Assembly: GCF_900115815.1 (NCBI RefSeq)
Contig: NZ_FOXV01000001.1
Location: forward strand, 124,001-188,000
Reading direction: 5' to 3'
DNA: 64,000 nt
Origin: Roseivivax halotolerans
GTDB lineage: Bacteria > Pseudomonadota > Alphaproteobacteria > Rhodobacterales > Rhodobacteraceae
Part shown: one piece after another, positions 6,709-64,000 of the stretch
Position numbering within the stretch: position 1 is the first letter of the stretch
Layout of the letters: each line of letters opens with the position of its first letter
Made by a program: the position numbers and the translations under genes
The notes under the pieces: generated by a model
What the model was told of the DNA's origin: nothing
What the model saw: the letters and a program-made list of their open reading frames with translations, nothing else
Database searches by the model: none

Positions 6709-9444
6709 ATGCTAGGGTTCGGAACACTCACGAAAAAGGTCTTCGGCACGGCGAACGACCGGAAGATCAAGTCGACCCGGCCCCTGATCGAGAAGATCAA
6801 CGCTCTGGAGGCCGAGTACGAGGCTTTGGACGACGCGGGCCTGAGGGCCAAGACGGACGAGTTCCGCAAGCGCTTCGAAGGTGGCGAAAGCCTCGACGAT
6901 CTTCTCCCCGATGCCTTCGCCAATTGCCGTGAGGCCGCCAAGCGGGCGCTCGGCCTGCGCGCCTTCGACGTGCAGCTCATGGGCGGGATCTTCCTGCACC
7001 AGGGCAACATCTCGGAGATGAAGACCGGCGAGGGCAAGACGCTGGTCGCCACCCTTCCCGCCTATCTCAACGCGATTTCCGGCAAGGGCGTGCACATTGT
7101 CACGGTGAACGACTACCTCGCCCGCCGCGATGCCGACTGGATGAGCAAGGTCTACGGTGCGCTCGGCTTGACGACGGGCGTGGTCTATCCGCGCCAGCCC
7201 GAAGACGAGAAGAAAGCTGCCTACCAGGCCGATATCACCTACGCCACGAACAACGAGCTTGGCTTCGATTACCTGCGCGACAACATGAAGTCCGAACTGG
7301 ACCAGATGTATCAGCGCGGGCACAACTTCGCGATCGTGGACGAGGTCGATTCCATCCTGATCGACGAGGCGCGCACGCCGCTCATCATCTCGGGTCCGAG
7401 CCAGGACCGCTCGGAGCTTTATACCGGGATCGACAAGCTGCTGCCGGATCTTACCGAGGAACATTACGAGCTCGACGAGAAGACGCGCAGTATCTCCTTC
7501 ACCGACGAGGGCAACGAGTTCCTCGAAGAGCGGCTGCGCGAGGCCGGGTTGATGCCCGAGGGTCAGACGCTCTACGACCCCGAATCGACCACGCTCGTGC
7601 ATCACGTCACGCAGGCGCTTCGGGCACACAAGCTCTACCAGCGCGACAAGGACTACATCGTGCGCGACAACGAGGTCGTGCTGATCGATGAATTCACGGG
7701 CCGCATGATGGCGGGCCGCCGCCTGTCTGACGGTCTGCATCAGGCCATCGAGGCCAAGGAAGGCTGCCAGATCCAGCCCGAGAACGTCACGCTCGCAAGC
7801 GTGACCTTCCAGAACTACTTCCGCCTTTACAACAAGCTGTCGGGCATGACCGGCACCGCCACCACCGAAGCCGAGGAATTCGCGGAAATCTACGGGCTCG
7901 GCGTGGTCGAAGTGCCGACCAACCGGCCGATCGCGCGGATCGACGAAGACGACAAGGTCTACCGCACCGCGCAAGAGAAATACGAAGCCATCGTCGAGGA
8001 GATCCGCCTCGCCCACCAGAAGGGCCAGCCCGTCCTCGTCGGCACCACCTCGATCGAGAAGTCCGAGATGCTGAGCCAGCTGCTCCAGAAGGCCGGGCTC
8101 AAGCACAATGTCCTGAATGCGCGCCAGCACGAGCAGGAAGCCCAGATCGTCGGCGATGCCGGCCTGCCGGGCGCCGTGACGATCGCGACGAACATGGCCG
8201 GGCGCGGCACCGACATCAAGCTCGGCGGCAATTTCGAGATGAAGGTGCAGGCCGCGCTCGATGCCGACCCCAATGGCAATCCCGAAGAGATCCGCGCGCG
8301 GATCGAAGCCGGGCAGGCCGAGGCCGAGGACAAGGTGAAAGAGGCCGGCGGTCTGTTCGTTCTGGCGACCGAACGGCACGAAAGCCGCCGGATCGACAAC
8401 CAGCTGCGCGGCCGCTCGGGCCGTCAGGGCGATCCGGGGCGTTCGTCCTTCTTCCTCTCGCTCGACGACGACCTGATGCGGATCTTCGGCTCCGAACGGC
8501 TCGACAAGGTGCTCTCCTCGCTCGGGATGCAGGAAGGCGAGGCGATCGTTCATCCGTGGGTGAACAAGTCGCTCGAGCGCGCGCAGTCAAAAGTGGAAGC
8601 GCGCAACTTCGACATCCGCAAACAGCTTTTGAAGTTCGACGACGTGATGAATGACCAGCGTAAGGTCATCTTCGGTCAGCGCCGCGAGATCATGGAAGCC
8701 GAGGATCTCTCGGAAGTCACCGAGGATATGCGGGAAGAAGTGATCGACGATATCGTCGATACTTACGCCCCGCCCAAGAGCTACGCGGATCAGTGGGACG
8801 TCGAAGGACTTGATGCCGATATCAAGGACAAGCTCAATATCGCGCTCCCGGTCGCGGAGTGGGCAGAAGAAGACGGCGTCGACCAGGATGTGCTGCGTGA
8901 ACGCATCGCCGAAGCCTCGGACAAGCTCATGGCGGAAAAAGCCGAGGCATTCGGCCCCGAGGCGCTGCGCCAGATCGAGAAACAGGTTCTCTTGCAGACC
9001 ATCGACTCCAAATGGCGTGATCACCTCCTGACACTGGAGCATCTACGTTCGGTCGTGGGTTTCCGCGGGTATGCTCAGCGCGACCCGCTGAACGAATACA
9101 AGACCGAGGCATTCCAGCTCTTCGAATCGATGCTGGACAGCCTGCGTAGCGAGGTCACGCAGAAGCTGGCCCAGATCCAGCCGATGAGCGAGGAGCAGCG
9201 CAAACAACTCCTCGATCAGCTACGCCGCGAACAGGCGCAGGCCCAGATGGCGGCTGCACAGGCCCCTGCGGGCGCGACGAATCCCGAAAGCGAAGCGGCA
9301 GGTCCGGCGGTCGCCGCGAAGGAGCCGCTGATCGACGGCTTCGACGAGACAGATCCCTCCACCTGGGGCAATCCGGGACGCAACGCGCCCTGCCCCTGCG
9401 GATCGGGCCAGAAGTTCAAGCATTGCCACGGTCGCCTCGCCTAA
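6709..9444 (+). CDS. secA: Preprotein translocase ATPase SecA
   Basis: Motor ATPase that pushes unfolded preproteins through SecYEG. The 911-residue protein has Walker A MKTGEGKT (about 104-111), the [14 protein letters not shown] helicase segment, the [10 protein letters not shown] motif and a C-terminal zinc motif with C895, C897, C906 and H907 that binds SecB and phospholipid. The ATG at 6709 gives the standard [14 protein letters not shown]-terminus and has GAGAG upstream; an in-frame ATG 39 bases earlier (6670) adds residues unlike the family. Transcribed away from the PPIase gene. Confidence 0.98.
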
Positions 9445-47029: not shown

Positions 47030-47809
47030 TCAGATGGCTCGCTCGACCATCGTTTTCTTGATCTCCGCGATCGCCTTGGCTGGGTTCAGACCCTTGGGGC
47101 AGGTCTTCGCGCAATTCATGATCGTGTGGCAGCGATAGAGCTTGAAGGGATCTTCCAGATCGTCGAGCCGCTCACCCGTCGCCTCGTCACGGCTGTCGAT
47201 GATCCAGCGATAGGCATGCAGAAGCGCTGCCGGCCCGAGATACCGATCGCCGTTCCACCAGTAGGACGGGCAGGCGGTCGAGCAGCAGGCGCACATCACG
47301 CATTCGTAAAGACCGTCGAGCTTCTCGCGATCCTCGATGGACTGCTTCCATTCCTTGGCCGGACGCGGCGTCTCCGTCTCGAGCCAGGGATGGATCGAGG
47401 CGTGCTGCGCGTAGAAATGCGTCAGGTCCGGGATGAGATCCTTGACCACCGGCATGTGCGGCAGCGGGTAGATTTTCACGTCGCCCTTCACCTCGTCGAT
47501 GCCGTAGATGCAGGCCAGCGTGTTGATCCCGTCGATGTTCATCGCGCAGGAACCGCAGATGCCTTCGCGGCAGGAGCGGCGGAAGGTCAGCGTCGGGTCG
47601 ATCTCGTTCTTGATCTTGATAAGAGCGTCCAGAACCATCGGCCCGCAGGCGTCGAGGTCGAGGAAGTACGTATCGACCCGTGGATTTTCCCCGTCATCGG
47701 GGCTCCAACGGTAGATCTTGAACGTACCAACCCGGTTCGCGCCCTCAGGCTTCGGCCAGGTCTTGCCCGTCCGGATGGTGGAGTTCTTGGGGAGCGTCAG
47801 TTGAACCAT
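47030..47809 (-). CDS. sdhB: Succinate dehydrogenase iron-sulfur subunit
   Basis: Carries electrons from SdhA's FAD to ubiquinone through three Fe-S centres. The 259-residue protein shows the 2Fe-2S motif [15 protein letters not shown] with a later Cys, the 4Fe-4S motif [12 protein letters not shown] and the 3Fe-4S/4Fe ligands [17 protein letters not shown]. It is at the distal end of the sdh operon, separated from sdhA by two small lipoprotein genes and a 118-base gap. Confidence 0.97.
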
Positions 47810-48259: not shown

Positions 48260-48508
48260 TCAATCGAGGCAATAGAGCGTCCCGCGATAGAGAGTGGGGG
48301 CGCCGGGCGGACAGTCTACGCTGGCGGCGGTCACGACAGATCCGCCGGTCCGAACACCCGCGCCATGCGCCGAGAGGCCCGCACCTTTGCCGGTATAGAC
48401 GTCCGCCTGAACGATCGGGGCCGGCTGGGGCGCCGGCGCGGGCGGTGCGGCACAGGCGGAAAGAGCTGTGAGTGCGGCAGCCGCGAGCGGTTTGAAACCC
48501 CGAGCCAT
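48260..48508 (-). CDS. Small lipoprotein overlapping the sdhA stop
   Basis: An 82-residue protein starting [19 protein letters not shown], with lipobox cysteine at 19, a Pro/Ala linker and a short C-terminal region ending TLYRGTLYCLD. The ATG overlaps the sdhA TGA (TGATG), so it is translationally coupled to sdhA. It follows sdhA and precedes the other lipoprotein. Function unknown; envelope location is inferred from the lipobox. Confidence 0.75.
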   Translation of the reverse strand: MARGFKPLAAAALTALSACAAPPAPAPQPAPIVQADVYTGKGAGLSAHGAGVRTGGSVVTAASVDCPPGAPTLYRGTLYCLD

Positions 48509-50313
48509 CAGAACGTCCGCGCCTTGGGCGCGATCTTCTTCAGCTCGATCCCGCCTTGCTCTTCCGTGGTCAAAGGATCGGTCACGATGGGACGATAGCT
48601 GAGATCCACCTTCGCGTCCGAGATCCGGCTGATCGTATGTACGCGCCAGTTCTCGTCGTCGCGCTCGGCGAAGTCCTCGTGCGCATGGGCACCGCGGCTT
48701 TCCTTCCGTGCCTCGGCTCCGGCGATGGTCGCCAGCGCGTTCGGCATGAGGTTGGTAAGCTCCAGCGTCTCCATGAGATCGGAGTTCCAGACGAGGCTGC
48801 GATCCGTGACCTTCAGATCGCCGATCTTGCCTGCGATGTCGGTCATGCGCTTGAGACCGTTCGCCATCGTCTCGGCGGTGCGGAAGACGGCGGCGTCTTC
48901 CTGCATGGTCTTCTGCATCTCGAGCCGGAGTTCCGCTGTGGGCGTGCCGCCATCGGCATGGCGCAGCGCATCGAAGCGGTCGAACGCCTTGTCCACCTGT
49001 CCCTTGTCGGCCTTGCGCGGCGAGGCTGCCCGGTCGACCACGTCGCCCGCGCGGATCGCGGCGGCGCGACCGAAGACCACGAGGTCGATGAGCGAGTTCG
49101 ATCCGAGGCGGTTCGCACCGTGCACGGAGGCGCACCCCGCCTCGCCCACGGCCATGAGGCCGGGCACGATCTTGTTCGGATCGTCCGCGGTCGGGTTCAG
49201 CACCTCGCCCCAGTAATTCGTGGGGATGCCGCCCATGTTGTAATGCACGGTCGGAATCACCGGGATCGGCTCTTTCGTGACATCGACGCCCGCGAAGATG
49301 CGCGCGCTCTCGGAGATGCCGGGCAGACGCAGTTGCAGCGCCTCTTTGGGCAGGTGCGAGAGGTTCAGGTGAATGTGATCGCCACCCTTGCCGACGCCGC
49401 GTCCTTCGCGGATCTCCATCGTCATGCAGCGCGAGACGTAGTCACGTGGCGCGAGGTCCTTGTAGTTGGGCGCATAGCGCTCCATGAACCGCTCGCCTTC
49501 GGAGTTGGTCAGATACCCGCCTTCGCCGCGCGCACCCTCGGTGATAAGGCAGCCCGCGCCGTAGATGCCGGTCGGATGGAACTGAACGAACTCCATGTCC
49601 TGAAGGGGCAGCCCGGCCCGCGCGACCATGCCGCCGCCATCGCCGGTGCATGTATGCGCCGAGGTCGCGGAGAAATAGGCACGGCCATAGCCGCCGGTCG
49701 CGAGCACGACCATCTTCGCGTTGAAGACATGCATCGTGCCGTCGTCGAGTTTCCAGCAGACGACGCCCGTGCAGGTGCCGTCATCGTCCATCAGAAGGTC
49801 GATGGCGAAATACTCGATGTAGAACTCGGCGTTGTTCTTGAGAGACTGGCCGTAGAGCGTGTGCAGGATCGCGTGACCGGTGCGGTCGGCGGCAGCACAG
49901 GTGCGCTGTACCGGCGGGCCTTCACCGAACTCGGTCGTGTGGCCGCCGAAGGGACGCTGGTAGATCTTGCCCTCTTCGGTGCGCGAGAACGGTACGCCGT
50001 AATGCTCAAGCTCGTAGACCGCCGCGGGAGCATGACGCGCGAGATATTCCATCGCGTCGGTGTCGCCGAGCCAGTCGGACCCCTTCACGGTGTCGTACAT
50101 GTGCCATTGCCAGTGGTCGGGCCCCATGTTCGACAAAGAGGCCGCGATGCCGCCCTGTGCGGCCACAGTATGCGACCGGGTCGGGAACACCTTGGTCACG
50201 CAGGCGGTCTTGAGCCCTTGCTCGGCCATGCCAAGCGTCGCGCGCAGGCCCGAGCCGCCGGCCCCCACGACCACGACGTCATAATCATGCGTCTCGTATT
50301 CGTATTCAGCCAT
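48508..50313 (-). CDS. sdhA: Succinate dehydrogenase flavoprotein subunit
   Basis: Oxidises succinate to fumarate in the TCA cycle and respiratory complex II. The 601-residue protein has the FAD motif [19 protein letters not shown], the covalent-FAD histidine in [10 protein letters not shown], the active-site region [20 protein letters not shown] and [18 protein letters not shown]. Length and motifs are standard. Third gene of the sdhC-sdhD-sdhA series. Confidence 0.98.
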
Positions 50314-50334: not shown

Positions 50335-50706
50335 TCAAAGCGCCAGGCGCGCGACGGCGAAAAGGCCGGTCGCGGCGAGCGCATACATAAGGCAGGTCAT
50401 GCCGAGGATGAGGACCTTTTCCCAAAGTCCGTGCACGTAATCCTCGACGAGGGTCTGGAAGCCGTCCTTGAAGTGGATGCAGGTCACGAGGATCGTGAGC
50501 CCCGCCACGATCGCCGGGAAGGGACGGGAGTAATAAGCGATCACCTCTTCGTAGCTCGATCCCAGGATCGGGCCGAAGGTGAAGACGAAAAGCGGCACCA
50601 GGAAAAGAAGGCCCACGGATTGGATCTTCATCTTCCAGAAATGCTCGGTTCCGGCTTTCGCGCTGCCCCAGTTCACGGCGCGCTTGCGGTCGGTCAGGAA
50701 TGCCAT
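50335..50706 (-). CDS. sdhD: Succinate dehydrogenase membrane anchor SdhD
   Basis: A 123-residue membrane protein with three TM helices (about 30-50, 60-78, 95-118). The heme and quinone-side segment is VTCIHFKDGFQTLVEDYVHG, with a His and the Asp-Tyr pair typical of SdhD. Between sdhC and sdhA on the minus strand. Confidence 0.93.
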   Translation of the reverse strand: MAFLTDRKRAVNWGSAKAGTEHFWKMKIQSVGLLFLVPLFVFTFGPILGSSYEEVIAYYSRPFPAIVAGLTILVTCIHFKDGFQTLVEDYVHGLWEKVLILGMTCLMYALAATGLFAVARLAL

Positions 50707-50719
50707 GTGCTGCGCCCCT

Positions 50720-51103
50720 TCAGATGATGATGACGGTGAGGATGGTCATGGCGACGGAGGCACCGATCACGCCCCAGCCGAGCTTTTCCGCGATATCGAG
50801 CTCGAGACCTATCGCGTAATCCCAGATGAGGTGCCGGATGCCGGCGAAGAAGTGGTACCAAAGCGCCCAGACCGACAGGAACATCACCAGATCGCCGAAC
50901 CAGCTCGTCACGAAGCCGTTCGCGGTGGCGAAATACTCGGGCCCGGATGCCGCGGCGATGAACCACCATACAATCATGAAAATCGCGACGATCAGCGCAT
51001 TGCCGGTAATCCGCGTCAGGATCGAGGTGATGGAGGTCAGCTGCGGGCGGTAGACCTGCAGGTGCGGCGACAGGGGGCGGTTCCCCCGGTTCACGTCTGC
51101 CAT
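50720..51103 (-). CDS. sdhC: Succinate dehydrogenase cytochrome b556 subunit SdhC
   Basis: A 127-residue subunit with three TM helices. The N-terminal RPLSPHLQVYRPQLTSITSI and the heme ligand region HFFAGIRHLIWDYA are diagnostic. First gene of the operon sdhC-sdhD-sdhA-lipoproteins-sdhB. The paired GTGATCAC operator lies 117-145 bases upstream. Confidence 0.95.
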   Translation of the reverse strand: MADVNRGNRPLSPHLQVYRPQLTSITSILTRITGNALIVAIFMIVWWFIAAASGPEYFATANGFVTSWFGDLVMFLSVWALWYHFFAGIRHLIWDYAIGLELDIAEKLGWGVIGASVAMTILTVIII

Positions 51104-51219
51104 TGACGAATTCCTTTCGGTTCCCTGAGCTTGGTTCTAGTCATATTTATCGCGCTGTCACGCGCCCAGCCTCGAAAATGAGCGCCTTTGCCGCGGTTGC
51201 CGGGCTGATAGCGCGGCAA

Positions 51220-51248
51220 GTGATCACAAGAAATACGCGTGTGATCAC
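51220..51248 (-). promoter_or_regulatory. Paired GTGATCAC operator upstream of sdhC
   Basis: Two perfect 8-base palindromes at 51220-51227 and 51241-51248, start-to-start distance 21 bases, i.e. two helical turns. Read toward sdhC, the first is part of TTGTGATCACAC, identical to the copy upstream of sucC. The near edge is 117 bases from the sdhC ATG. Confidence 0.7.
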
Positions 51249-51282
51249 AAATATCCACCGCGCAGCGAGTCGCCTCGTGCCA

Positions 51283-52335
51283 TTAGAGCGGGATCAGCGC
51301 CCAATAATCGAGATCGAGGAGGATACCGGGCAGATACCTGCCATCCTCATCCTTAAGCTCGCCGACGCTGCCGTCTTTCGTTGCAACCAGGCGCAAACGG
51401 ATCGCACCGACGCCCGGCGCGGAGGTTTCCGCCGTGTCGAGCACTTCAGACCAGGCCCGGATCGTGTCGCCTGCAAAGCACGGATTGGCATGCGCCCCTG
51501 CATTGAGCCCCGCGATGATCTGCGCGTTGGCGAGACCGTTGAAACTGAGCGCGCGGGCCATCGAGATGACATGCCCGCCATAGATCAGGCGCTTGCCATC
51601 CTCGCGCTGGGTGGCGTCGAAATGCACCTTGGCCGTGTTCTGCCAAAGGCGCGTCGCCATCATGTGCTCGGCTTCCTCGACCGTGACGCCGTCCACGTGG
51701 TCGATAACCTCGCCGATCGCGTAGTCACTGAGGCGGTGCCGTTCTCCGGCCTGACCGAAATCGTAATCCGAGAAATCGAGCCCCGAGGGAATCGTCAGAT
51801 CGGCGGGCTCGAGCGCATTCTTGAGGTTGGGCACGACCGTCGAGGGGGCGGGAGCATCTTCATCGCGTTTCTTGACCATCACCCAGCGCACGAAGTCGAT
51901 CACCGTCTCGTCGCGTTGATTGATGCCCTTGGTCCGCACCCAGACGACGCCGGTTTTCCCGTTCGAATTCTGCTTGAGGCCGATCACTTCCGACTGCGCG
52001 CGCAGCGTGTCGCCGGCGAAGACAGGCTTCAGCCAGCGTCCTTCCGCATAGCCCAGATTGGCCCGCGCGTTGAGCGAGATATCCGGCACCGACTTGCCGA
52101 AAACGACGTGGAACGCCGCCAGATCATCGAGCGGACTTTCCGGCAGGCCAGAGTCGCGCGCGAACTGGTCCGAGGAGTAGAGCGCGCGCCGCTCGGGATA
52201 AAGCGCGTGATACAGCGCGCGCTCGCCCGGACCGACGGTGCGGGGCACGGCGTGTTCCAGCACCTGCCCGATCTCGTAATCCTCGAAGAAATTTCCGGAA
52301 TTGGTCTTCGCCACCGATCCACCCTCATCCTTCAT
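51283..52335 (-). CDS. mch: Mesaconyl-C1-CoA hydratase (beta-methylmalyl-CoA dehydratase)
   Basis: Ethylmalonyl-CoA pathway: hydrates mesaconyl-C1-CoA to beta-methylmalyl-CoA. The 350-residue double hot-dog MaoC protein has FFEDYEIGQVLEHAVPRTVG and a second domain beginning DYAIGEVIDHVDGVTVEEAEH. ATG 52335 overlaps the DUF1737 stop (TGATG) with GGAGAG upstream. A GTG at 52314, giving VAKTNSGNFFEDY, is a plausible alternative that matches known Mch N-termini. Last gene of the mcl2-NnrU-DUF1737-mch operon. Confidence 0.9.
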   Translation of the reverse strand: MKDEGGSVAKTNSGNFFEDYEIGQVLEHAVPRTVGPGERALYHALYPERRALYSSDQFARDSGLPESPLDDLAAFHVVFGKSVPDISLNARANLGYAEGRWLKPVFAGDTLRAQSEVIGLKQNSNGKTGVVWVRTKGINQRDETVIDFVRWVMVKKRDEDAPAPSTVVPNLKNALEPADLTIPSGLDFSDYDFGQAGERHRLSDYAIGEVIDHVDGVTVEEAEHMMATRLWQNTAKVHFDATQREDGKRLIYGGHVISMARALSFNGLANAQIIAGLNAGAHANPCFAGDTIRAWSEVLDTAETSAPGVGAIRLRLVATKDGSVGELKDEDGRYLPGILLDLDYWALIPL

Positions 52336-52538
52336 CACTGCTCTCCGAGCTTCATGTCAGGATCGTAGGTGCCGGGTGCGTCCTTCACGACGGCTTGGCC
52401 GCAGCGCATCACGCCGTTCGCGGAATCGAAGGCGTAGGTCGGATCGCCGTAGAGCTCCCAGCCCTTGGAGAGGGCTTCGCTCACCTTGTGGCAAAAGGCC
52501 GACGTGTCGTCTTCGCTGAGGAAGCGGTAGAGTTTCAT
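52335..52538 (-). CDS. DUF1737 small protein
   Basis: A 67-residue protein with the DUF1737 pattern (YRFLSEDDTSAFCHKVSEAL, GWELYGDPTYAFD). Function unknown. It overlaps mch by one base and follows the NnrU-family gene by 19 bases, in the ethylmalonyl-CoA gene group. Confidence 0.85.
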   Translation of the reverse strand: MKLYRFLSEDDTSAFCHKVSEALSKGWELYGDPTYAFDSANGVMRCGQAVVKDAPGTYDPDMKLGEQ

Positions 52539-52557
52539 AAGGTCTCCTCTCGCGGGG

Positions 52558-53112
52558 TCAGGCCGGGAAGGGCCAGACGCCCAGCCAGGCGTGAATTCCG
52601 GTGATGAGGACGAACATCACGATGGTAATGATAAGAAGGACGACATCTTTCTTCGCAGGGCCGGGCTCGGGCCGGTCCCAGGTCGTGCTCTTGTTGATGA
52701 GGATCACCTCGGCGACGGCCCAGGCCAAGAGCCCGCCGAAAAGGATGATCGAGGCCAGGTCGCCGTTGACCAGAAGGTGCGCGATCGCCCACACCTTGAC
52801 CGCCGTGAGCTGCGGATGCCGCAGCTTGCCGCGCAAACGGCCTTTCGTGGCACTCATCCCGTAGAGGAACACGGCACCCAGCATCATCAGGTTGTTGATG
52901 TGGACCATGAAGGACGGCGGGGTCCAGACATTGATGAAGGGCGCCGCGCGATAGCCAAGGATCATCAGGACGAGTCCCGCAAGAACGCCGACCGCGACGA
53001 GCCCCTTGCCCGCATTGCCCATCGCCGCGCGCTGCTCGGGCGCGACACGTTTGAAGAAATGCGCGGCGACCCAGAGGAGCAGCCCGAGTATCAGCAGAAG
53101 CATTGCGGTCAT
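52558..53112 (-). CDS. NnrU family membrane protein
   Basis: A 184-residue integral membrane protein with about five TM helices and the NnrU-type segment KGRLRGKLRHPQLTAVKVWA followed by AHLLVNGDLASIILFGG. NnrU was named from a denitrification cluster; most homologues have no proven function. Its ATG overlaps the mcl2 stop (ATGA). Confidence 0.87.
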   Translation of the reverse strand: MTAMLLLILGLLLWVAAHFFKRVAPEQRAAMGNAGKGLVAVGVLAGLVLMILGYRAAPFINVWTPPSFMVHINNLMMLGAVFLYGMSATKGRLRGKLRHPQLTAVKVWAIAHLLVNGDLASIILFGGLLAWAVAEVILINKSTTWDRPEPGPAKKDVVLLIITIVMFVLITGIHAWLGVWPFPA

Positions 53113-53960
53113 CCTTTCGCGATGGCGTCGATTGCCTCTGCTTGTGCCAAGAGTTTGCGGGCCGTGTCTACGTGCAGATTTTCGACGATCTTCCCGTCGA
53201 CCACCGCGACCCCCTGCCCTTCGGCCTTGGCGACCTCGTAAGCCTCGATCTGACGACGCGCGAGATCGAGGTCGCCTTCGGAGGGGCCGAAGGCGCGGTT
53301 CGCGATCTCGACCTGAGCGGGATGGATCAGCGTCTTGCCGTCAAAGCCCATATCGCGGCCTTGCCGGCATTCGGCGGCGAGCCCCTCTTCGTCCTTGAAC
53401 GCGTTGTAGACGCCGTCGACCGCCGCGATGCCATGCGCGCGCGCCGCCAGCAGGCACTGACCCAGCGCCGGCAGCATCGAGACCCGGTCGGCTGTCGCCC
53501 GCGCGCCAAGCTCCTTCACGAGGTCGTTCGTGCCCATGATGAAGCCGTCCATCAGAGGATGGGCCGCGATCTCGGGCGCTGCGAGAATACCGCGCGGCGT
53601 CTCCATCATGGCCCAAAGCCGCACGTCGCCGGTGATCCCCGCGAGAGAGTCGAGCTGCGCCGTGTTCTCGACCTTCGGCAGAAGCACCGCATCGGCCTTC
53701 ATCTCGGCCGCGGCCTTCGCGTCGTCCTTGCCCCATTCGGTCTCAAGACCGTTGATCCGCACCAGCGTGAAGCGCGGCGCGAAGCCGCCCTTGTCCAGCT
53801 CTTCGGCGAGTGTCGCACGGGCCGCCGCCTTTTCCTCGGGCGAGACCGCGTCCTCCAGATCGAAGATGATCGCATCGACCGCGAGTCCCCGCGCCTTGTC
53901 GATCGCCCGCGGCTTGGAGCCCGGAATATAGAGGACGGAGCGAAGCGGGCGGGTCATCAT
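53109..53960 (-). CDS. mcl2: (3S)-malyl-CoA thioesterase (CitE-like)
   Basis: Hydrolyses (3S)-malyl-CoA to malate and CoA in the ethylmalonyl-CoA pathway. The 283-residue CitE-like barrel has RSVLYIPGSKPRAIDKA, DAIIFDLEDAVSPEEKA and GKTLIHPAQVE. It is closer to Mcl2 than to the longer Mcl1 lyase, whose N-terminus is different (family knowledge). Position beside mch supports this. The start may be either of two adjacent ATGs (53960 or 53957). First gene of a minus-strand operon with a CTGC-N3-GCAG dyad 82 bases upstream. Confidence 0.85.
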   Translation of the reverse strand: MMTRPLRSVLYIPGSKPRAIDKARGLAVDAIIFDLEDAVSPEEKAAARATLAEELDKGGFAPRFTLVRINGLETEWGKDDAKAAAEMKADAVLLPKVENTAQLDSLAGITGDVRLWAMMETPRGILAAPEIAAHPLMDGFIMGTNDLVKELGARATADRVSMLPALGQCLLAARAHGIAAVDGVYNAFKDEEGLAAECRQGRDMGFDGKTLIHPAQVEIANRAFGPSEGDLDLARRQIEAYEVAKAEGQGVAVVDGKIVENLHVDTARKLLAQAEAIDAIAKG

Positions 53961-54041
53961 GGGCGGCATCCCCTCAGGCGGCGCGAAACAATATTGCGCC
54001 GGAAACAGCCAGTTTTTGCCGAAACATTCAAGCAGAATTTG

Positions 54042-54052
54042 CTGCAATGCAG
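54042..54052. promoter_or_regulatory. CTGC-N3-GCAG dyad upstream of mcl2
   Basis: CTGCAATGCAG, a perfect 4-3-4 inverted repeat with a further GCAG 10 bases away (54032-54035), in the only non-coding region before mcl2. It resembles the PhaR operator. A link of PhaR to acetyl-CoA assimilation would make sense but is inference. Confidence 0.4.
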
Positions 54053-54062
54053 AGAGCCGCCC

Positions 54063-54815
54063 TCAGGTCAGCGCGTCCCAGATGAGTTTCGAGCCGGTGA
54101 TGCCGAGCAGCGTATAGGTCAGACCGAAGAAGACCCGCTCCGGCACGAGGTGATGCGCCTTGATCCCGATCCAGGTGCCAAGGACCGCCGCGGGGATCAG
54201 CGCGAGATCGAGAAGCAGGCTTTCGCGGGTGAAGATTCCCATCCCCGCGTAAAGCCCGACCTTGGAGAGATTGATCGCCCAGAACACGAGAACCGTGGTC
54301 GCCTGGAACGCGGTCTTCGGCAGGCTGCGTCCCAGCAGATAGACCGCGGCGGCAGGTCCGCCTGCATGGCTGACGAAAGAGGTGAAGCCCAGCGTCAGAC
54401 CCGCAAGGATGCCCGCGCGCTGGCCCATCTGCCGCTCGATGCGGATGACACCGGCTTTCTGCGCCCATTGCCACGCGATGAACAAAAGACAGACCAGCCC
54501 GATCACCAGGCGAATCGCGTCGTCGTTCGTCCAGCGATAGAACAGCGCGCCCAGCACCACGCCGGGCAGACCCGCCGCGATCAGGAGCCGCGCCTCCGGC
54601 CAGCGCCACTTCTTCCAGTAGGCCGGCAAACTGACCACGTCGATGACCATCAAAAGCGGCAACATGATCCCGAGTGCCGAGCCGGGATCGAGCACGATCG
54701 CCAGAATCGAGGCCGACGCAAACGCCGCGCCCGAGCCGAATCCACCCTTGGAGACCCCCGCGAAGATCACCGCAGGCACGGCGAGAGCAAAAACGGGCCA
54801 GCTGAGAAGATCCAT
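54063..54815 (-). CDS. TauE/SafE-type membrane permease
   Basis: A 250-residue protein with about seven to eight TM helices. The repeated TauE/SafE signatures GVSKGGFGSGAAFASASI and GFTSFVSHAGGPAAAVYLL lie in the first and second halves. Members export sulfite, sulfoacetate or other organic anions; the substrate here is unknown. It is monocistronic and divergent from mdh. Confidence 0.87.
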   Translation of the reverse strand: MDLLSWPVFALAVPAVIFAGVSKGGFGSGAAFASASILAIVLDPGSALGIMLPLLMVIDVVSLPAYWKKWRWPEARLLIAAGLPGVVLGALFYRWTNDDAIRLVIGLVCLLFIAWQWAQKAGVIRIERQMGQRAGILAGLTLGFTSFVSHAGGPAAAVYLLGRSLPKTAFQATTVLVFWAINLSKVGLYAGMGIFTRESLLLDLALIPAAVLGTWIGIKAHHLVPERVFFGLTYTLLGITGSKLIWDALT

Positions 54816-54837
54816 GTGAAAACGTCCGTAAATGACG

Positions 54838-54857
54838 GTGTTAGCGATGTGTTAGCG
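54838..54857 (+). promoter_or_regulatory. Tandem GTGTTAGCG repeat upstream of mdh
   Basis: GTGTTAGCG at 54838-54846 and again at 54849-54857, spaced 11 bases (about one helical turn). The second is followed by CT, forming an AGCGCT centre like LacI-family operators. 120 bases before the mdh ATG. Confidence 0.45.
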
Positions 54858-54874
54858 CTTGAGCCCGGCAATGA

Positions 54875-55939
<1,065 letters not shown>

Positions 55940-55966
55940 GATCGGCGACGCTGCGATTGCAATCAA

Positions 55967-55990
55967 GGGCGGCCTCTGAGCCGCCCTTTT
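55967..55990 (+). terminator. Terminator of mdh
   Basis: Perfect 7-bp stem GGGCGGC/GCCGCCC (55967-55973 and 55980-55986), loop CTCTGA, followed by TTTT. It lies 28 bases after the mdh stop and may also serve the convergent glycosyltransferase gene. Confidence 0.88.
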
Positions 55991-55999
55991 CGTTGCGGT

Positions 56000-56971
56000 T
56001 CAGTCTGGCGATGACAGTCCGACGCTTCGATCGAAAGCCTCCGGTCTGAGGTCAACGCTCCCACCGAAAAGCGCCGCCGTCGCGCGGGCCGGATCGCACG
56101 GCATGGGCTCCAGGCAACCGGCCTGCCTCAGTGCATCGGCCAGTTCCGGCCCGAGGACGCGCAGCTTGTCATGCAGGGCGAGCGCCGCTGCTCCGTCGCC
56201 CCCCGCCTCCGTGACTTCTGCAATCTGACGCGCGCGAAAGGACTGGGCGCGCGAGCCGTCTTTATACATGCCCTGCGCGGCGTACCGCATGAGCTTGGCG
56301 CACCAATGCGCCCGCGTCAGCCCGTCGAAATGACAGATCTTCGCCTCGCGGCTTTCCGCGATGCGCGCAGGCGGCTCACGACGGGGGCCATGAAGCCCGA
56401 GGCTGAGCCCACGCCCGGTCCGAGTGACGCTCTTACCAAGCGCATGTCCGCAAAAGCCGCGATCGGTGAAGAGCGCAAGCTCGTCTCCAAGCAGGCGGCG
56501 CGCGGCACGCGGCGGACCCGGAACCTGCCACAGCAGGGCACCGTCGAATATCGTGTCCACCGGCGCGTCCCTCAGCCAGACACGCTCACCGTTCGGGATA
56601 TGCAAACTGTCGATGTCGTCTGGCAAAGCGGAGAGCAGTCCTGCGAATTCCTCTGCCGCCAGGAATTCGTCGGCATCTACGTGCAGGAGCCAATCGACCT
56701 CCATCGTCCGCACCGCGTGCTCCGCATTGAACCGTTGCTTGCGGTTGAGAGCCGCGGGCTTGCGCCGCACTCCGACAATGTCCGTATAAAATGCCTCATC
56801 GGCCCCGATGAGATGCACCTGCGGCACACGCCCGAGCAACTCGTTGATGCGAGGGTCGGATCGATCGAGATAGTAGCGGATCTCCGATGCACCCATCGTC
56901 ACGTAGTGCGCGGCGTGCGCCGCAAGAAGTTCAGGCGGCTCTGCGACGGTCGAGACGACGCCCCAGCGCAT
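56000..56971 (-). CDS. Glycosyltransferase family 2-like protein, first of a tandem pair
   Basis: A 323-residue GT-A fold protein. It opens WGVVSTVAEPPELLAAHAAH and has the DxD motif in WLLHVDADEFL, then NGERVWL, TIFDGALLW, and HFDGLTRAHWCAKLMRYA. It is a paralogue of the next gene upstream (56975-58015), with the same sequence of motifs. The substrate is unknown. Start ATG 56971 is 3 bases from the neighbour's stop, so the two are co-transcribed. Confidence 0.87.
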   Translation of the reverse strand: MRWGVVSTVAEPPELLAAHAAHYVTMGASEIRYYLDRSDPRINELLGRVPQVHLIGADEAFYTDIVGVRRKPAALNRKQRFNAEHAVRTMEVDWLLHVDADEFLAAEEFAGLLSALPDDIDSLHIPNGERVWLRDAPVDTIFDGALLWQVPGPPRAARRLLGDELALFTDRGFCGHALGKSVTRTGRGLSLGLHGPRREPPARIAESREAKICHFDGLTRAHWCAKLMRYAAQGMYKDGSRAQSFRARQIAEVTEAGGDGAAALALHDKLRVLGPELADALRQAGCLEPMPCDPARATAALFGGSVDLRPEAFDRSVGLSSPD

Positions 56972-56974
56972 CGC

Positions 56975-58015
56975 TTACGCCTTGAGTAGGGCTGCATGGC
57001 CCTCGCGGCCGGCCCGCTCGACCAGTAGCGCCGCATCGAACGCCTCGACGGACAGATCTGCCGAGACGCCTGGAAATATCCGCGTCAGCGACGCCGACGC
57101 ATCGACACCGGTCGGCTTCAAACGGTGTATGCGGCTCATCCTCCGAGCCATCAGCGGCGGAATGACCCTGAGCCGGTCGTGCAATGCGACGATTGGAGCG
57201 AGATCGCCGCCCGACTGGACAGCCAGCGCGATCTGCTGATCCCGGTAACTCGAATGACGGCGGCCGGGCTTCGGCAGAACCCCGTTCTCTGCGTGACGTT
57301 GAAGCTTCAAAGCCCAGTGCAGACGGGTGAGACCGTCGAAATGACTTATTCTAACGGTGTCGGCGGCATGGGTCACGTCCGTGTCGCAGCGCGGCCGGTG
57401 GATGCCTGCGCCGATGCCGCCGCCAACACGCAGCGCCCCCTTTCCGAGTGCATGTGCCAGAAGACCGTGACGCGTCAGATGCCCCATATCCGGGCCCCGC
57501 ACCCGGGCAAGACGGCCCGGATCGGTCATCGGCAGCGCCAGTGCGCCGTCGAAAATGGTCTCGAGCGGCGCGCCTTCGAGGTAGACCCTCTCTCCGTTCT
57601 GCACCCAGTATGCCGCGATCTCGGGCGGCAAGGCGGCAAGCTCCTCGGCGGGGTCGGCGGTCAGGAACTCGTCGGCGTCGAGATGGAAGAGCCAGTCTGC
57701 ATCGCTTAGCGTCTCAGCGTGGTTGGCGTTCACGATCTGCCGTCTGTTGATCCAGCCCGGACGACGGCGTCCGATACTGGAATAAAAGGCATCATCGCAG
57801 GTGATGAGCGTCACGCGCGGGTCCGCACCGATCGCCGCTTCGAGATCCGGATGCGGTCCATCGAGATAGAGATGAACATGCAGGGCGCCGAGATCGAGGT
57901 GATGCGCCGCAAACGCCAAAAGCAGCGCCGCAGGTTCGCGCACGGTTGCAACGACGCTCCAGCGACCACCGGACGCCGACATCTGCGCCCTGTTGGACGT
58001 CATCTCGCGAGGCAT
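56975..58015 (-). CDS. Glycosyltransferase family 2-like protein, second of a tandem pair
   Basis: A 346-residue paralogue of the adjacent gene: WSVVATVREPAALLLAFAAH, WLFHLDADEFL (DxD), NGERVYLEGAPLETIFDGA, and HFDGLTRLHWALKLQRHA. The start is uncertain; ATGs at 58015, 58003 and further in are possible. No polysaccharide gene cluster surrounds the pair. They may decorate an envelope glycan, which is inference. Confidence 0.85.
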   Translation of the reverse strand: MPREMTSNRAQMSASGGRWSVVATVREPAALLLAFAAHHLDLGALHVHLYLDGPHPDLEAAIGADPRVTLITCDDAFYSSIGRRRPGWINRRQIVNANHAETLSDADWLFHLDADEFLTADPAEELAALPPEIAAYWVQNGERVYLEGAPLETIFDGALALPMTDPGRLARVRGPDMGHLTRHGLLAHALGKGALRVGGGIGAGIHRPRCDTDVTHAADTVRISHFDGLTRLHWALKLQRHAENGVLPKPGRRHSSYRDQQIALAVQSGGDLAPIVALHDRLRVIPPLMARRMSRIHRLKPTGVDASASLTRIFPGVSADLSVEAFDAALLVERAGREGHAALLKA

Positions 58016-58168
58016 TGCTCGAAACCTCAGAATTTCTTCTTTTTGTTGATGAGACGGTATGCGAGGCGCGCCTCGCTTGTCAAAATCGCCCCGCCGCTTT
58101 CGGCGACCAGTGATGCAGACCGGCACCGAGAGCGCCCATAGAAGAGTCGGACACCGCCGCCCCGCATT

Positions 58169-58197
58169 GTGATCACACTAAATTCCTGTGTGATCAC
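58169..58197 (+). promoter_or_regulatory. Paired GTGATCAC operator upstream of sucC
   Basis: Perfect palindromes at 58169-58176 and 58190-58197, start-to-start 21 bases, the same as upstream of sdhC. The near edge is 109 bases from the sucC ATG. Same flank TTGTGATCACAC. Confidence 0.7.
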
Positions 58198-58305
58198 AAA
58201 AGGCGAATTATTGCCGGGTCAGCGCAATTCGAGGTGTTTTTCGGTGCACGACGCCCCAGCTAGCCTTTATAGCAGGTGGAAAGACAGCAAAACGGGACGG
58301 ATGAC

Positions 58306-59499
58306 ATGAATATCCACGAGTATCAGGCCAAGGCTCTTCTGCGGAGCTACGGCGCGCCGGTCTCCGACGGCCGCGTCGTGCTTAAAGCTGCGGACGCCAA
58401 GACCGAGGCCGCCAATCTCGATGGCCCGCTCTGGGTGGTGAAGGCCCAGATCCACGCGGGCGGTCGCGGCAAGGGCTCCTTCAAGGAAGCCGATGCTGGC
58501 GAGAAAGGCGGCGTGCGCCTGGCCAAATCGGTCGAGGAAGCCGCCGAAGAAGCCAAGAAGATGCTCGGCAAGACCCTCGTGACGCACCAGACCGGCCCGG
58601 CGGGCAAGCAGGTCAACCGTATCTACATCGAGGATGGCTCCGATATCGAGCGCGAGCTCTACCTCGCGCTGCTGGTAGACCGCGTGTCGAGCCGCGTATC
58701 CTTCGTCTGCTCCACCGAAGGCGGCATGGACATCGAAGAGGTCGCGGCCTCCACGCCCGAGAAGATCCTGTCCTTCGCGGTCGATCCTGCCACGGGCTAC
58801 CAGCCCTATCACGGGCGCCGCATCGCCTTCGCCCTCGGGCTGGAGGGCGCGCAGATCAAGCAATGCGTCAAGCTGATGGGCATTCTCTACAACGCCTTCA
58901 TCGAGCGCGACATGGAGATGCTCGAGATCAACCCGCTGATCGTGATGACGAACGGCGAGCTGAAGGTTCTCGACGCCAAGCTCGGTTTCGACTCGAACGC
59001 GCTTTACCGTCAGCCCGACGTGGCAGAGCTGCGCGACGAGACCGAGGAAGACCCCAAGGAGCTTGAAGCGTCCAAGTACGACCTCAACTACATCGCGCTC
59101 GACGGCGAGATCGGCTGCATGGTCAACGGTGCGGGCCTCGCAATGGCGACGATGGATATCATCAAGCTCTACGGCGCGGAGCCGGCGAACTTCCTCGACG
59201 TCGGCGGCGGTGCCACGAAGGAGAAAGTGACCGAGGCGTTCAAGATCATCACCTCTGACAGCAACGTCAAAGGCATCCTTGTGAACATTTTCGGCGGCAT
59301 CATGCGCTGCGACGTCATCGCCGAGGGCGTGGTCGCCGCGGTGAAGGAAGTCGGCCTGAAAGTTCCGCTGGTCGTGCGTCTGGAGGGCACCAATGTTGAG
59401 CAGGGCAAGGAGATCATCAACAACTCCGGCCTCGACGTGATCGCCGCGGACGATCTCAAGGACGGCGCGCAGAAAATCGTTCAGGCGGTCAAGGGCTGA
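58306..59499 (+). CDS. sucC: Succinyl-CoA synthetase beta subunit
   Basis: ATP-grasp subunit that with SucD makes ATP or GTP from succinyl-CoA. The 397-residue protein begins [19 protein letters not shown] and has [17 protein letters not shown] and [15 protein letters not shown]. Start 58306 gives the canonical N-terminus; 30 bases upstream the frame is still open but has no similarity. First gene of sucC-TM protein-sucD-lipoprotein-sucA. Confidence 0.98.
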
Positions 59500-60073: not shown

Positions 60074-60961
60074 ATGGCCGTTCTTGTCGACGAAAACACC
60101 AAGGTGATCTGTCAGGGCTTCACCGGCTCCCAGGGCACGTTCCACTCCGAACAGGCGATCGCCTACGGCACCAAGATGGTCGGTGGCGTGACACCGGGCA
60201 AAGGCGGGCAGAGCCATCTTGACCTGCCGGTCTTCAATTCCGTGCACGAAGCCAAGCACGAAACCGAAGCGAACGCCTCGGTGATCTACGTGCCGCCGCC
60301 CTTCGCCGCCGACTCGATCCTCGAGGCGATCGACGCGGAGATGGAGCTGATCGTCTGCATCACGGAAGGGATTCCCGTCCTCGACATGATGAAGGTCAAG
60401 CGCGCGCTCGAAGGCTCCAAGTCGAAGCTGATCGGCCCGAACTGCCCTGGTGTCATCACGCCCGACGCCTGCAAGATCGGCATCATGCCCGGCCACATCC
60501 ACAAGCGCGGCAAGGTCGGCGTCGTTTCCCGCTCGGGCACGCTCACCTATGAGGCGGTCAAGCAGACCACCGATGTGGGCCTCGGCCAGTCGACCTGCGT
60601 CGGCATCGGCGGCGACCCGATCAAGGGAACGGAGCATATCGACGTTCTGGAATGGTTCCTCGCCGACGACGAGACCGAGGCGATCATCATGATCGGTGAG
60701 ATCGGCGGTTCGGCCGAAGAGGATGCCGCGCAGTTCCTCGCCGATGAGAAAAAGAAAGGCCGCTGGAAGCCGACCGCCGGGTTCATCGCAGGGCGCACCG
60801 CGCCTCCGGGCCGCCGCATGGGCCACGCCGGCGCGATCGTCGCTGGCGGCAAAGGCGGCGCGGACGACAAGATCGAGGCCATGAACAAGGCGGGTATCGT
60901 TGTCGCCGACAGTCCCGCCACCCTCGGCGAGGCCGTTCTCAAGGCGATCGACAAAGGCTGA
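60074..60961 (+). CDS. sucD: Succinyl-CoA synthetase alpha subunit
   Basis: CoA-binding subunit that carries the phosphohistidine intermediate. The 295-residue protein has [52 protein letters not shown] and the active-site [14 protein letters not shown]. Start 60074 is the standard N-terminus [16 protein letters not shown]. Confidence 0.98.
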
Positions 60962-61359: not shown

Positions 61360-64000
61360 ATGACCGACCAAAGCCCCAACGACGCCTTCCACGCCTCCTC
61401 GTTCATGCAGGGGCACAACGCGGAATATCTCGAACAGATGTACGCGCGTTACGCCAACGACCCGAGCGCGGTCGACGAGGCCTGGCAGGCCTTTTTCAAG
61501 GGGCTCGGCGACGATGAGATCTCGGTCAAGAAAGAGGCCGAAGGCCCGTCCTGGGTGCGCAAAAACTGGCCGCCCGAACCCGTCGACGAGCTGACAGCGG
61601 CGCTGACCGGCGAATGGCCGATGCCCGCCATCCCGGGCGAGGCGAAGGCCGCGGGCGAGAAGATCAAGGCCAAGGCCGATGCGGAGGGCGTCAAGCTCAC
61701 CGATGATGACATCCAACGTGCGGTGCTGGATTCGATCCGCGCGCTCATGATCATCCGCGCCTACCGGATCCGTGGCCACCTTGCCGCCGATCTCGACCCC
61801 TTGGGCATGCGCGACACCTCCGAGCATCCCGAACTCGATCATCGCTCCTACGGCTTCACCGATGCCGATCTCGACCGTCCGATCTTCATCGACAACGTGC
61901 TCGGCCTCGAGATCGCGAGCCTGCGCGAGATCATCTCGGTCCTGAAGCGCACCTATTGCGGCACCTTCGCGCTGCAGTACATGCACATCTCCGACCCCGA
62001 GCAATCCGCCTGGCTGAAAGAGCGGATCGAGGGCTATGGCAAGGAGGTGAAGTTCACCCGCGAGGGCCGCAAGGCGATCCTCAACAAGATGGTCGAAGCC
62101 GAGGGCTTCGAGAAGTTCCTGCACGTCAAGTACATGGGCACCAAGCGCTTCGGCCTCGATGGCGGCGAAAGCGCGATCCCGGCGATGGAGCAGATCATCA
62201 AGCGCGGCGGTGCGCTCGGCCTCGAGGAAATCGTCATCGGCATGCCCCACCGGGGCCGCCTCTCGGTCCTGGCGAACGTGATGGGCAAGCCCTACCGCGC
62301 GATCTTCAACGAATTCCAGGGCGGCAGCTTCAAACCCGAGGATGTCGACGGCTCTGGCGACGTGAAATACCACCTTGGCGCATCATCCGACCGCGAGTTC
62401 GACGGCAACACCGTTCACCTCTCGCTGACCGCGAATCCCTCGCACCTCGAGGCGGTGAACCCGGTCGTGCTCGGCAAGGTCCGCGCCAAACAGGACCAGC
62501 TCAAGGACAGCTCACGCACCAAGGTGTTGCCGATCCTTCTGCATGGCGACGCGGCCTTCGCGGGCCAGGGCGTCGTCGCGGAATGTTTCGCACTCTCGGG
62601 CCTGCGCGGGCACCGGACGGGCGGCACGATCCATCTCGTGGTGAACAACCAGATCGGGTTCACCACCGCGCCGCACTTCTCGCGCTCCTCCCCCTACCCG
62701 ACCGACAACGCGCTCGTCGTCGAGGCACCGATCTTCCACGTCAACGGGGATGACCCGGAAGCCGTGGTTCACGCTGCCAAGGTCGCCACGGAGTTCCGCC
62801 AGAAATTCGGCAAGGACGTGGTCATCGACATGTTCTGCTATCGCCGCTTCGGTCACAACGAAGGCGATGAGCCGATGTTCACCAACCCGTTGATGTACAA
62901 GCAGATCAAGGGCCACAAGACAACGCTCACGCTTTATACCGAACGCCTTGTGAAAGACGGGCTCATCCCCGAGGGCGAGATCGAGGACATGAAAGCCTCG
63001 TTCCAATCGCATCTCAACGAGGAGTTCGAGGCCGGCAAGAACTACAAGCCCAACAAGGCCGACTGGCTCGATGGGCGCTGGTCGCATCTCGATCGCCAGA
63101 AAGAGGGCAAGTACCAGCGTGGCAAGACCTCGATCAAGAAGAAGACCCTCGAGGAAATCGGCCGCGCCCTGACGGAGCCACCCGAAGGCTTCCCGCTGCA
63201 CAAAACGGTCGGCCGTCTCCTCGAGACCCGAAAGAAGATGTTCGAGACCGGGCAGGGCTTCGATTGGGCGACCGCCGAGGCCCTGGCCTTCGGCTCGCTC
63301 CTGACAGAAGGCTATCCGGTGCGGCTCTCGGGCCAGGATTCGACGCGCGGGACGTTCTCTCAGCGCCATTCGGCCCTGATCGACCAGGAAACCGAGGAAC
63401 GGTATTATCCGCTCAATCATATCCGTGAGGGTCAGGCCCGCTTCGAAGGGATCGATTCCGCCCTTTCGGAATACGCGGTGCTCGGGTTCGAGTACGGCTT
63501 CTCGATGGCCGAACCCAATGCGCTCACCCTCTGGGAAGCGCAGTTCGGCGACTTCGCCAATGGCGGCCAGATCATGTTCGACCAGTTCATCTCTTCGGGC
63601 GAAAGCAAGTGGCTGCGGATGTCGGGTCTCGTCTGCCTTCTGCCGCATGGCTACGAGGGACAGGGCCCGGAGCACTCCTCCGCCCGGCTCGAGCGCTTCC
63701 TGCAGATGTGCGGTCAAGACAACTGGATCGTGGCGAATTGCTCGACCCCGGCGAACTACTTCCACATCCTGCGGCGGCAGCTGCACCGCTCCTTCCGCAA
63801 GCCGCTGATCCTGATGACGCCGAAATCGCTTCTGCGCCACAAGCTCTGCGTCTCTGAAGCGGAGATGTTCGTGGAAGGCTCGTCCTTCCACCGCGTCCTC
63901 TGGGACGATGCGGAGAAGGGTCATTCCGAGACCGAGCTGAAGCCCGACGCCGAAATCAAGCGCGTCGTGCTGTGCTCCGGCAAGGTCTATTACGACCTCT
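61360..64000 (+). CDS. sucA: 2-oxoglutarate dehydrogenase E1 component, 3' truncated by window
   Basis: Thiamin-diphosphate enzyme that decarboxylates 2-oxoglutarate and passes the succinyl group to E2. The visible 880 codons begin MTDQSPNDAFHASSFMQGHN and include FMQGHNAEYLEQMYARY, YRIRGHLAADLDPLG, GMPHRGRLSVLANV, LLHGDAAFAGQGVV, RRFGHNEGDEP and LLPHGYEGQGPEHSSARLER. Full length in relatives is about 985 residues, so roughly the last 100 residues lie outside the window. The ATG is preceded by AGAGG. Its reading frame is open to the window end. Confidence 0.97.
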   Translation, partial: MTDQSPNDAFHASSFMQGHNAEYLEQMYARYANDPSAVDEAWQAFFKGLGDDEISVKKEAEGPSWVRKNWPPEPVDELTAALTGEWPMPAIPGEAKAAGEKIKAKADAEGVKLTDDDIQRAVLDSIRALMIIRAYRIRGHLAADLDPLGMRDTSEHPELDHRSYGFTDADLDRPIFIDNVLGLEIASLREIISVLKRTYCGTFALQYMHISDPEQSAWLKERIEGYGKEVKFTREGRKAILNKMVEAEGFEKFLHVKYMGTKRFGLDGGESAIPAMEQIIKRGGALGLEEIVIGMPHRGRLSVLANVMGKPYRAIFNEFQGGSFKPEDVDGSGDVKYHLGASSDREFDGNTVHLSLTANPSHLEAVNPVVLGKVRAKQDQLKDSSRTKVLPILLHGDAAFAGQGVVAECFALSGLRGHRTGGTIHLVVNNQIGFTTAPHFSRSSPYPTDNALVVEAPIFHVNGDDPEAVVHAAKVATEFRQKFGKDVVIDMFCYRRFGHNEGDEPMFTNPLMYKQIKGHKTTLTLYTERLVKDGLIPEGEIEDMKASFQSHLNEEFEAGKNYKPNKADWLDGRWSHLDRQKEGKYQRGKTSIKKKTLEEIGRALTEPPEGFPLHKTVGRLLETRKKMFETGQGFDWATAEALAFGSLLTEGYPVRLSGQDSTRGTFSQRHSALIDQETEERYYPLNHIREGQARFEGIDSALSEYAVLGFEYGFSMAEPNALTLWEAQFGDFANGGQIMFDQFISSGESKWLRMSGLVCLLPHGYEGQGPEHSSARLERFLQMCGQDNWIVANCSTPANYFHILRRQLHRSFRKPLILMTPKSLLRHKLCVSEAEMFVEGSSFHRVLWDDAEKGHSETELKPDAEIKRVVLCSGKVYYDL

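Follow-up and report, generated by a model that had tools for sequence, protein, structure and literature searches.

Two identical pairs of palindromes, one ahead of sdhC and one ahead of sucC, lie in a 64,000-nucleotide stretch of the Roseivivax halotolerans genome (contig NZ_FOXV01000001.1, positions 124,001 to 188,000; the window hereafter), and they raise the question of which protein binds them and what it does to the two operons. Each pair consists of two perfect GTGATCAC palindromes, 21 base pairs (bp) apart from start to start and 29 bp long overall. An earlier sequence-only reading of the window had placed the pairs at 51220-51248 and 58169-58197, with a common flank of 12 bases and no further pair in the intergenic DNA of the window, and we confirmed these points: both pairs are at these coordinates, TTGTGATCACAC, read in gene orientation, is common to the sdh and suc pairs, and an exact-pair scan of the 3.77-megabase genome found GTGATCAC-N13-GTGATCAC at two places only, ahead of sdhC and sucC, instead of scattered over the genome. 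The same reading was right to set both pairs near the two start codons, and its distances of 117 and 109 bases are each one base over the clear distances of 116 (sdhC) and 108 bases (sucC). The number of exact N13 pairs predicted from base composition is about 7e-6 for the window and 4e-4 for the whole genome. The single palindrome occurs five times in the window against a mean of 0.93 in shuffled sequences, and 1 of 100 shuffles reached five; the fifth copy is a lone one (9017-9024) within a 924-codon open frame and is probably there by chance. We are confident, for the reasons given below, that the pairs are operators of a GntR/FCD regulator of the AkgR type.

Exact pairs were searched for in 295 genomes of the Rhodobacteraceae in the wide sense (the family hereafter), one per genus and including the window's own, and in 385 alphaproteobacterial genomes, of which 5 are family members and 380 lie outside the family. 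The pair was found in 249 of the 295 family genomes, mostly in two copies each, and in 2 of the 380 others, and the reversed pattern, used as a control, had no match in the 295 family genomes. The conservation among relatives that the sequence-only reading named as support is thus borne out, and both palindromes are kept in the sdhC and sucC upstream regions of other genera, with 46 of the 295 genomes lacking the exact pair. We read 84 pairs, 82 from 44 family genomes (75 among the matches listed and seven from G000, which is the window's genome, G075, G210, and G294) and two from outside the family. All 82 family pairs precede a gene of the tricarboxylic acid (TCA) cycle, namely sucC (41), sdhC (39), sucA (1), or fumC (1), and they lie 107-191 bases upstream of sdhC (median 132) and 96-150 bases upstream of sucC (median 109). 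In the sucA case (L216:1501-1529, G177), the pair is 135 bases ahead of sucA, with mdh on the other flank, instead of ahead of sucC. The fumC case (L207:1501-1529) comes from G042, which carries pairs at sdh and suc and a third one ahead of a fumC-like gene; in the window genome, the counterpart of this gene encodes a Lyase_1 protein.

The distance within the pair is conserved as well. A gap of 13 dominated a scan of 61 family genomes that allowed 1-31 bases: it accounts for 66 of the 75 pairs listed, the others having gaps of 12 (three pairs), 10 (two pairs), and 16, 22, 23, and 28 (one each), implying that the distance is kept at about two helical turns. The gap-23 pair (G042:C12:38212-38250) measures 31 bp from start to start, about three turns. 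Each GTGATCAC would bind one dimer of the AkgR-type regulator, and a separation of 21 bp, or two helical turns, would place the two dimers on the same face of the DNA, upstream of the promoter of each operon. The sequence-only reading had suggested such paired dimers on one face, and it is the spacing that argues for them. Of the two pairs outside the family, the one at L182 appears by eye to be coding sequence. In the other, L181 (G440), ATGATCAC, GTGATCAC, and GTGATCAC follow each other at steps of 20 and 21 bp (972-1020) ahead of a different GntR gene (1028-1903), whose product is 28% identical to the AkgR-type protein. This triplet is an independent use of nearly identical spacing, and the exact pair occurs in one of the five genomes compared from the family of G440.

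The candidate for the binding protein is the product of a GntR gene on a separate contig from the window (G000:C27:87109-87780, minus strand, 224 amino acids), which matches the Pfam families GntR (46.9 bits) and FCD (64.4 bits), both above cut-off. Orthologs were required to have a best E value below 1e-50, a line set between the orthologs and a paralog scoring about 1e-42. With this line, the regulator and the exact pair occur together in 243 of the 295 family genomes, the regulator without the pair in 25, the pair without the regulator in 6, and neither in 21 (Fisher p = 1.7e-14), and none of the 380 non-family genomes had a match past it. The invariance of the helix SMTPARE across 114 orthologs is 98% or higher. 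Looser pairs with up to two mismatches occur in 41 of the 46 genomes lacking the exact pair, both with and without the regulator, suggesting that pairs at this level are mostly chance, and they were left unused except for the one-mismatch pairs listed for G040 (discussed below). In a list of 80 named relatives, which contains no R. sphaeroides record and may leave out the window genome itself, the closest are mostly from Roseivivax, Salipiger, Marivita, Roseovarius, Ruegeria, and similar genera, the top one from Roseivivax (87%). L084, L100, and L110, labelled Enemella evansiae, Phyllobacteriaceae, and Spiribacter, also carry AkgR-type genes, with 82-91% identity to that of the window genome, and these labels or bins look wrong.

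The regulator of the pairs is very probably an ortholog of AkgR, a GntR activator of Rhodobacter sphaeroides. We take AkgR to be RSP_0981. In the parts of the literature available, R. sphaeroides AkgR is described as a transcriptional activator whose sites include GTGATCAC. The available parts of one paper describe RSP_0981 as a GntR-family protein predicted to regulate succinyl-CoA synthetase (sucCD), succinate dehydrogenase (sdh), and 2-oxoglutarate dehydrogenase, and by the locus numbers given there (RSP_0981 for the regulator, RSP_0974-6 for sdh, and RSP_0967-6 for suc) the regulator lies close to the TCA cluster (PMC4344238). In agreement with these numbers, the regulator lies 7-12 kilobases (kb) from sucD in four genomes, which were picked for having the regulator gene and the palindrome pairs on one contig. 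The earlier proposal of one shared TCA regulator is strongly supported by our results, in the form of a GntR/FCD protein of the AkgR type.

The regulator's own gene carries the same palindrome. In the window genome, one GTGATCAC lies between the upstream gene and the regulator's start. Among 110 close relatives (identity 78-100%; 101 distinct stretches), 108 carry GTGATCAC at the 5' end of the regulator gene, compared with 33 copies in the 600,627 bases of remaining sequence at these loci. In another set of 113 orthologs, most of them less similar, 83 have it (51 of 56 at higher rank and 32 of 57 at lower rank), and the overall count is 117 of 150 orthologs (30 of the 30 best, the 83 of 113, and 4 of 7 others), which were taken from the matches listed and do not fully cover the less similar end. 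TTGAC stands exactly 18 bases ahead of this operator in 96 of the 108 loci and 62 of the 83; among random 60-mers, 5% contain TTGAC. In 93 of the 108 and 66 of the 83, the first in-frame start codon is 16-18 bases past the operator start. This layout would put the transcription start at or beside the start codon and the -10 region under the operator, suggesting that, in the orthologs having the site, the regulator probably represses itself at this single site and that its message would be leaderless. Neither reading can hold for the orthologs in which the operator is missing, at least three of which (L244, L245, L254) keep TTGAC at that place. G193 has two AkgR-type copies (G193:C18:749658-750296 and G193:C7:630776-631405), each about 80% identical to the window genome's, with the own-gene site at one (L297) and absent from the other (L301). 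Outside the family, GTGATCAC is near the start of 6 of 25 distant GntR genes, besides L181, which was chosen for its pair, and the background at such loci is 5 copies in 98,049 bases, suggesting that the recognition sequence is older than the TCA wiring.

The DNA between the pairs and their genes suggests how the regulator might act on the operons. GTGAC occurs 86-89 bases past the pair start in 29 of 39 sdh loci, whose pair-to-gene distance varies by 84 bases, and we interpret it as a poor -35 element of the kind expected at an activated promoter. The suc set has a conserved TTT at +76 to +78 (34, 31, and 28 of 41 sequences), to which the window's own suc sequence conforms poorly. If GTGAC and TTT are -35 elements, the dyads are near -120/-99 (sdh) and -108/-87 (suc). 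These positions bear on the alternative that the regulator is correct but represses sdh and suc: most known FCD regulators repress, but the pairs lie well upstream of the putative promoters (about 60 bp ahead of the -35-like element in sdh), not over them, and AkgR is called a transcriptional activator in the parts of the literature available, so we consider repression unlikely.

When the sequences are aligned on the pair, their adenine and thymine (A/T) content after it rises and falls periodically, every 10.5 bp in the sdh set and every 9.75-10 bp in the suc set. The observed periodic power was reached in 0 of 2000 column permutations, and shifting each sequence by up to five bases approximately halved the amplitude (standard deviation 0.194 to 0.100 and 0.219 to 0.102), with 0 of 500 such jittered sets reaching the observed value. 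Split at random into halves, the sets gave profiles with correlations of 0.78 and 0.79. Over +33 to +99, the correlation between the sdh and suc profiles is r = 0.59, and of 67 circular shifts the unshifted one fits best. Two observations speak against a special role of the downstream side: a weaker A/T signal is also present upstream of the suc pair (p = 0.001; p = 0.05 for sdh), and anchoring the sequences on the start codon keeps part of the signal (power 10.2 and 12.1 vs 21.9 and 15.8).

In the mechanism we favor, the paired dimers would activate the sdh and the suc promoter jointly, and the part of the TCA cycle from 2-oxoglutarate to fumarate would thereby be switched as a unit. The A/T-rich tracts repeated about every 10 bp from the pair to the core promoter would probably bend the DNA or offer contacts to the alpha subunit of RNA polymerase on one face, and the single GTGATCAC over the -10 region of the regulator's TTGAC promoter would lead to probable autorepression in most orthologs. 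The sites, spacing, conservation, target genes, co-occurrence, own-gene site, and A/T phasing come from this analysis, the activator role and motif of AkgR and the predicted targets of RSP_0981 come from the literature, and cooperative binding, contact geometry, and autorepression are what we infer. A joint reading of the architecture can be offered only tentatively, and we doubt that it holds as a whole: two AkgR dimers 21 bp apart, together with the phased A/T tracts, might bend or wrap about 100 bp of upstream DNA onto RNA polymerase, activating from about -90/-110, beyond the classical class I position, and the single own-gene site over a probably leaderless promoter might limit the protein level in most of the family. 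Its standing is weakened by those family members that lack the own-gene site.

Several observations weigh against our explanation. Kinship among the genomes means that the Fisher p value overstates independence, and 25 genomes have the regulator without the exact pair; among these, G040 has two one-mismatch pairs 7.5 kb apart, G009 has a gap-12 pair, and G055 has two matches once the gap may vary. Six genomes have the pair without an ortholog at E < 1e-50 (completeness 73, 77, 77, 91, 93, and 100%). The own-gene site is missing in 33 of the 150 orthologs, mostly less similar ones, and G063, G124, and G294 lack it although they have the sdh and suc pairs. The fumC gene of the window's genome, checked as a third target, has no site, and a promoter scan of 58100-58320 found no sigma-70-like promoter at threshold. 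Finally, the probable orthology to R. sphaeroides AkgR is judged from family, motif, targets, and position.

Another GntR/FCD protein could bind the pairs instead, for example a 38% identical paralog (C27:52380-53132) that has a similar recognition helix (GMTPVRE vs SMTPARE) and, by the E < 1e-50 line, orthologs in 148 of the 295 family genomes. However, no GTGATCAC is near the paralog's own gene, its association with the pair is weak overall (p = 0.004) and absent among the AkgR-type carriers (132/144 vs 111/124, p = 0.67), and the pair is present in 115 of the 147 genomes that lack the paralog, which makes this possibility distinctly improbable; lacking both the own-gene palindrome and the association within regulator-bearing genomes, the paralog was rejected as the main candidate. 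A further GntR gene, at C28:10534 near a degenerate TTGCGATCACCA, was also set aside; its best NCBIfam row is LldR, far below the model cut-off. The sequence-only reading had left CRP, GntR, and other families open, of which GntR, in its GntR/FCD form, stands. A CRP/FNR-type protein would find TGTGA and TCACA half-sites here, but they abut in all four palindromes, whereas in the CRP palindrome six bases separate TGTGA from TCACA, and CRP/FNR half-sites (TGTGA/TCACA or TTGAT/ATCAA) generally have several bases between them. Because the half-sites abut we rejected this reading, and since GTGATCAC is also tied to GntR 5' ends, in the family and at the 6 of 25 distant loci outside it, we give such a protein a very slim chance. 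A repeat element or chance, for which we found no support, was rejected as a vanishingly improbable origin, given two genome copies with about 4e-4 expected and a position conserved across genera. The genome also contains 32 sites within two mismatches of TTGTGATCACAA vs 9 for the reversed control, an excess that we did not use to name extra targets because the reversed control contains CTAG, which is rare in many bacterial genomes.

The features of the two loci are collected in Table 1. Two tandem genes that match Glyco_tranf_2_4 (56000-58126, minus strand) lie between mdh and sucC in the window, and the suc pair sits between the second of them and sucC.

Table 1. Operators, putative promoter elements, and target genes in the window.
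Feature	Position	Strand	Remark
Palindrome GTGATCAC, sdh pair, sdhC-proximal	51220..51227	.	sequence; pair conserved
Palindrome GTGATCAC, sdh pair, sdhC-distal	51241..51248	.	21 bp start to start
Palindrome GTGATCAC, suc pair, sucC-distal	58169..58176	.	sequence
Palindrome GTGATCAC, suc pair, sucC-proximal	58190..58197	.	sequence
Putative -35 GTGACA, sdh promoter	51156..51161	-	inferred; 87 bases after pair start
Putative -10 TAGAAC, sdh promoter	51134..51139	-	weak, inferred; 16-base spacer
Region from sdh pair to sdhC	51104..51219	-	A/T phased at ~10.5 bp across genera
Region from suc pair to sucC	58198..58305	+	A/T phased at ~10 bp across genera
sdhC (target)	50720..51103	-	expected Pfam family match
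sdhD	50335..50706	-	expected Pfam family match
sdhA	48508..50313	-	expected Pfam family match
sdhB	47030..47809	-	expected Pfam family match
sucC (target)	58306..59499	+	expected Pfam family match
sucD	60074..60961	+	expected Pfam family match
Open frame 3' of sucD, running off the window	61360..64000	+	called sucA (2-oxoglutarate dehydrogenase E1) by place and sequence

Our explanation would give one named regulator to the succinate dehydrogenase and the succinyl-CoA synthetase/2-oxoglutarate dehydrogenase operons across a large bacterial family, and the 29-bp sequence could serve to search further genomes for targets of this regulator. With their rigid spacing and phased A/T tracts, the operons offer a testable case of an FCD-type GntR protein that activates rather than represses.

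Compared with known systems, the closest likeness is to AkgR itself, which shares the GntR family, the predicted sdh, suc, and 2-oxoglutarate dehydrogenase targets, and GTGATCAC as a site, the sites here being predicted ones. The AkgR paper of Imam, Noguera, and Donohue (2015, mBio 6:e02461-14) reportedly speaks in its abstract of orthologs in other alphaproteobacteria, whereas the 380 non-family genomes here gave only relatives at most 41% identical. PS417_07240 of Pseudomonas simiae, the regulator of a deoxyribonate cluster, is gntR-like, has GTGATCAC upstream, and is 32% identical to AkgR, but the available part of its description reports one palindrome, spanning -47 to -40 at its own gene, and its own catabolic cluster as the target instead of the TCA cycle. 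McbR of Escherichia coli has targets different from those of the AkgR type; by sequence it is the closest solved relative (PDB 4p9f; E = 5.4e-21 over residues 26-219). CceR, of the LacI family, is presumably RSP_1663. According to the available parts of the R. sphaeroides paper, CceR also controls succinate dehydrogenase in that species, but its predicted motif is an inverted repeat, GTT-N6-8-AAC, not GTGATCAC (PMC4344238). Motif searches of the open-licence literature returned no bacterial TCA-cycle paper among the matches listed. In summary, the regulon is already known and has an unusually clean cis-architecture. Three features may be new: the rigid pairing, which most of the family shares; the A/T phasing; and, in most orthologs, the way in which the regulator's own promoter is laid out.

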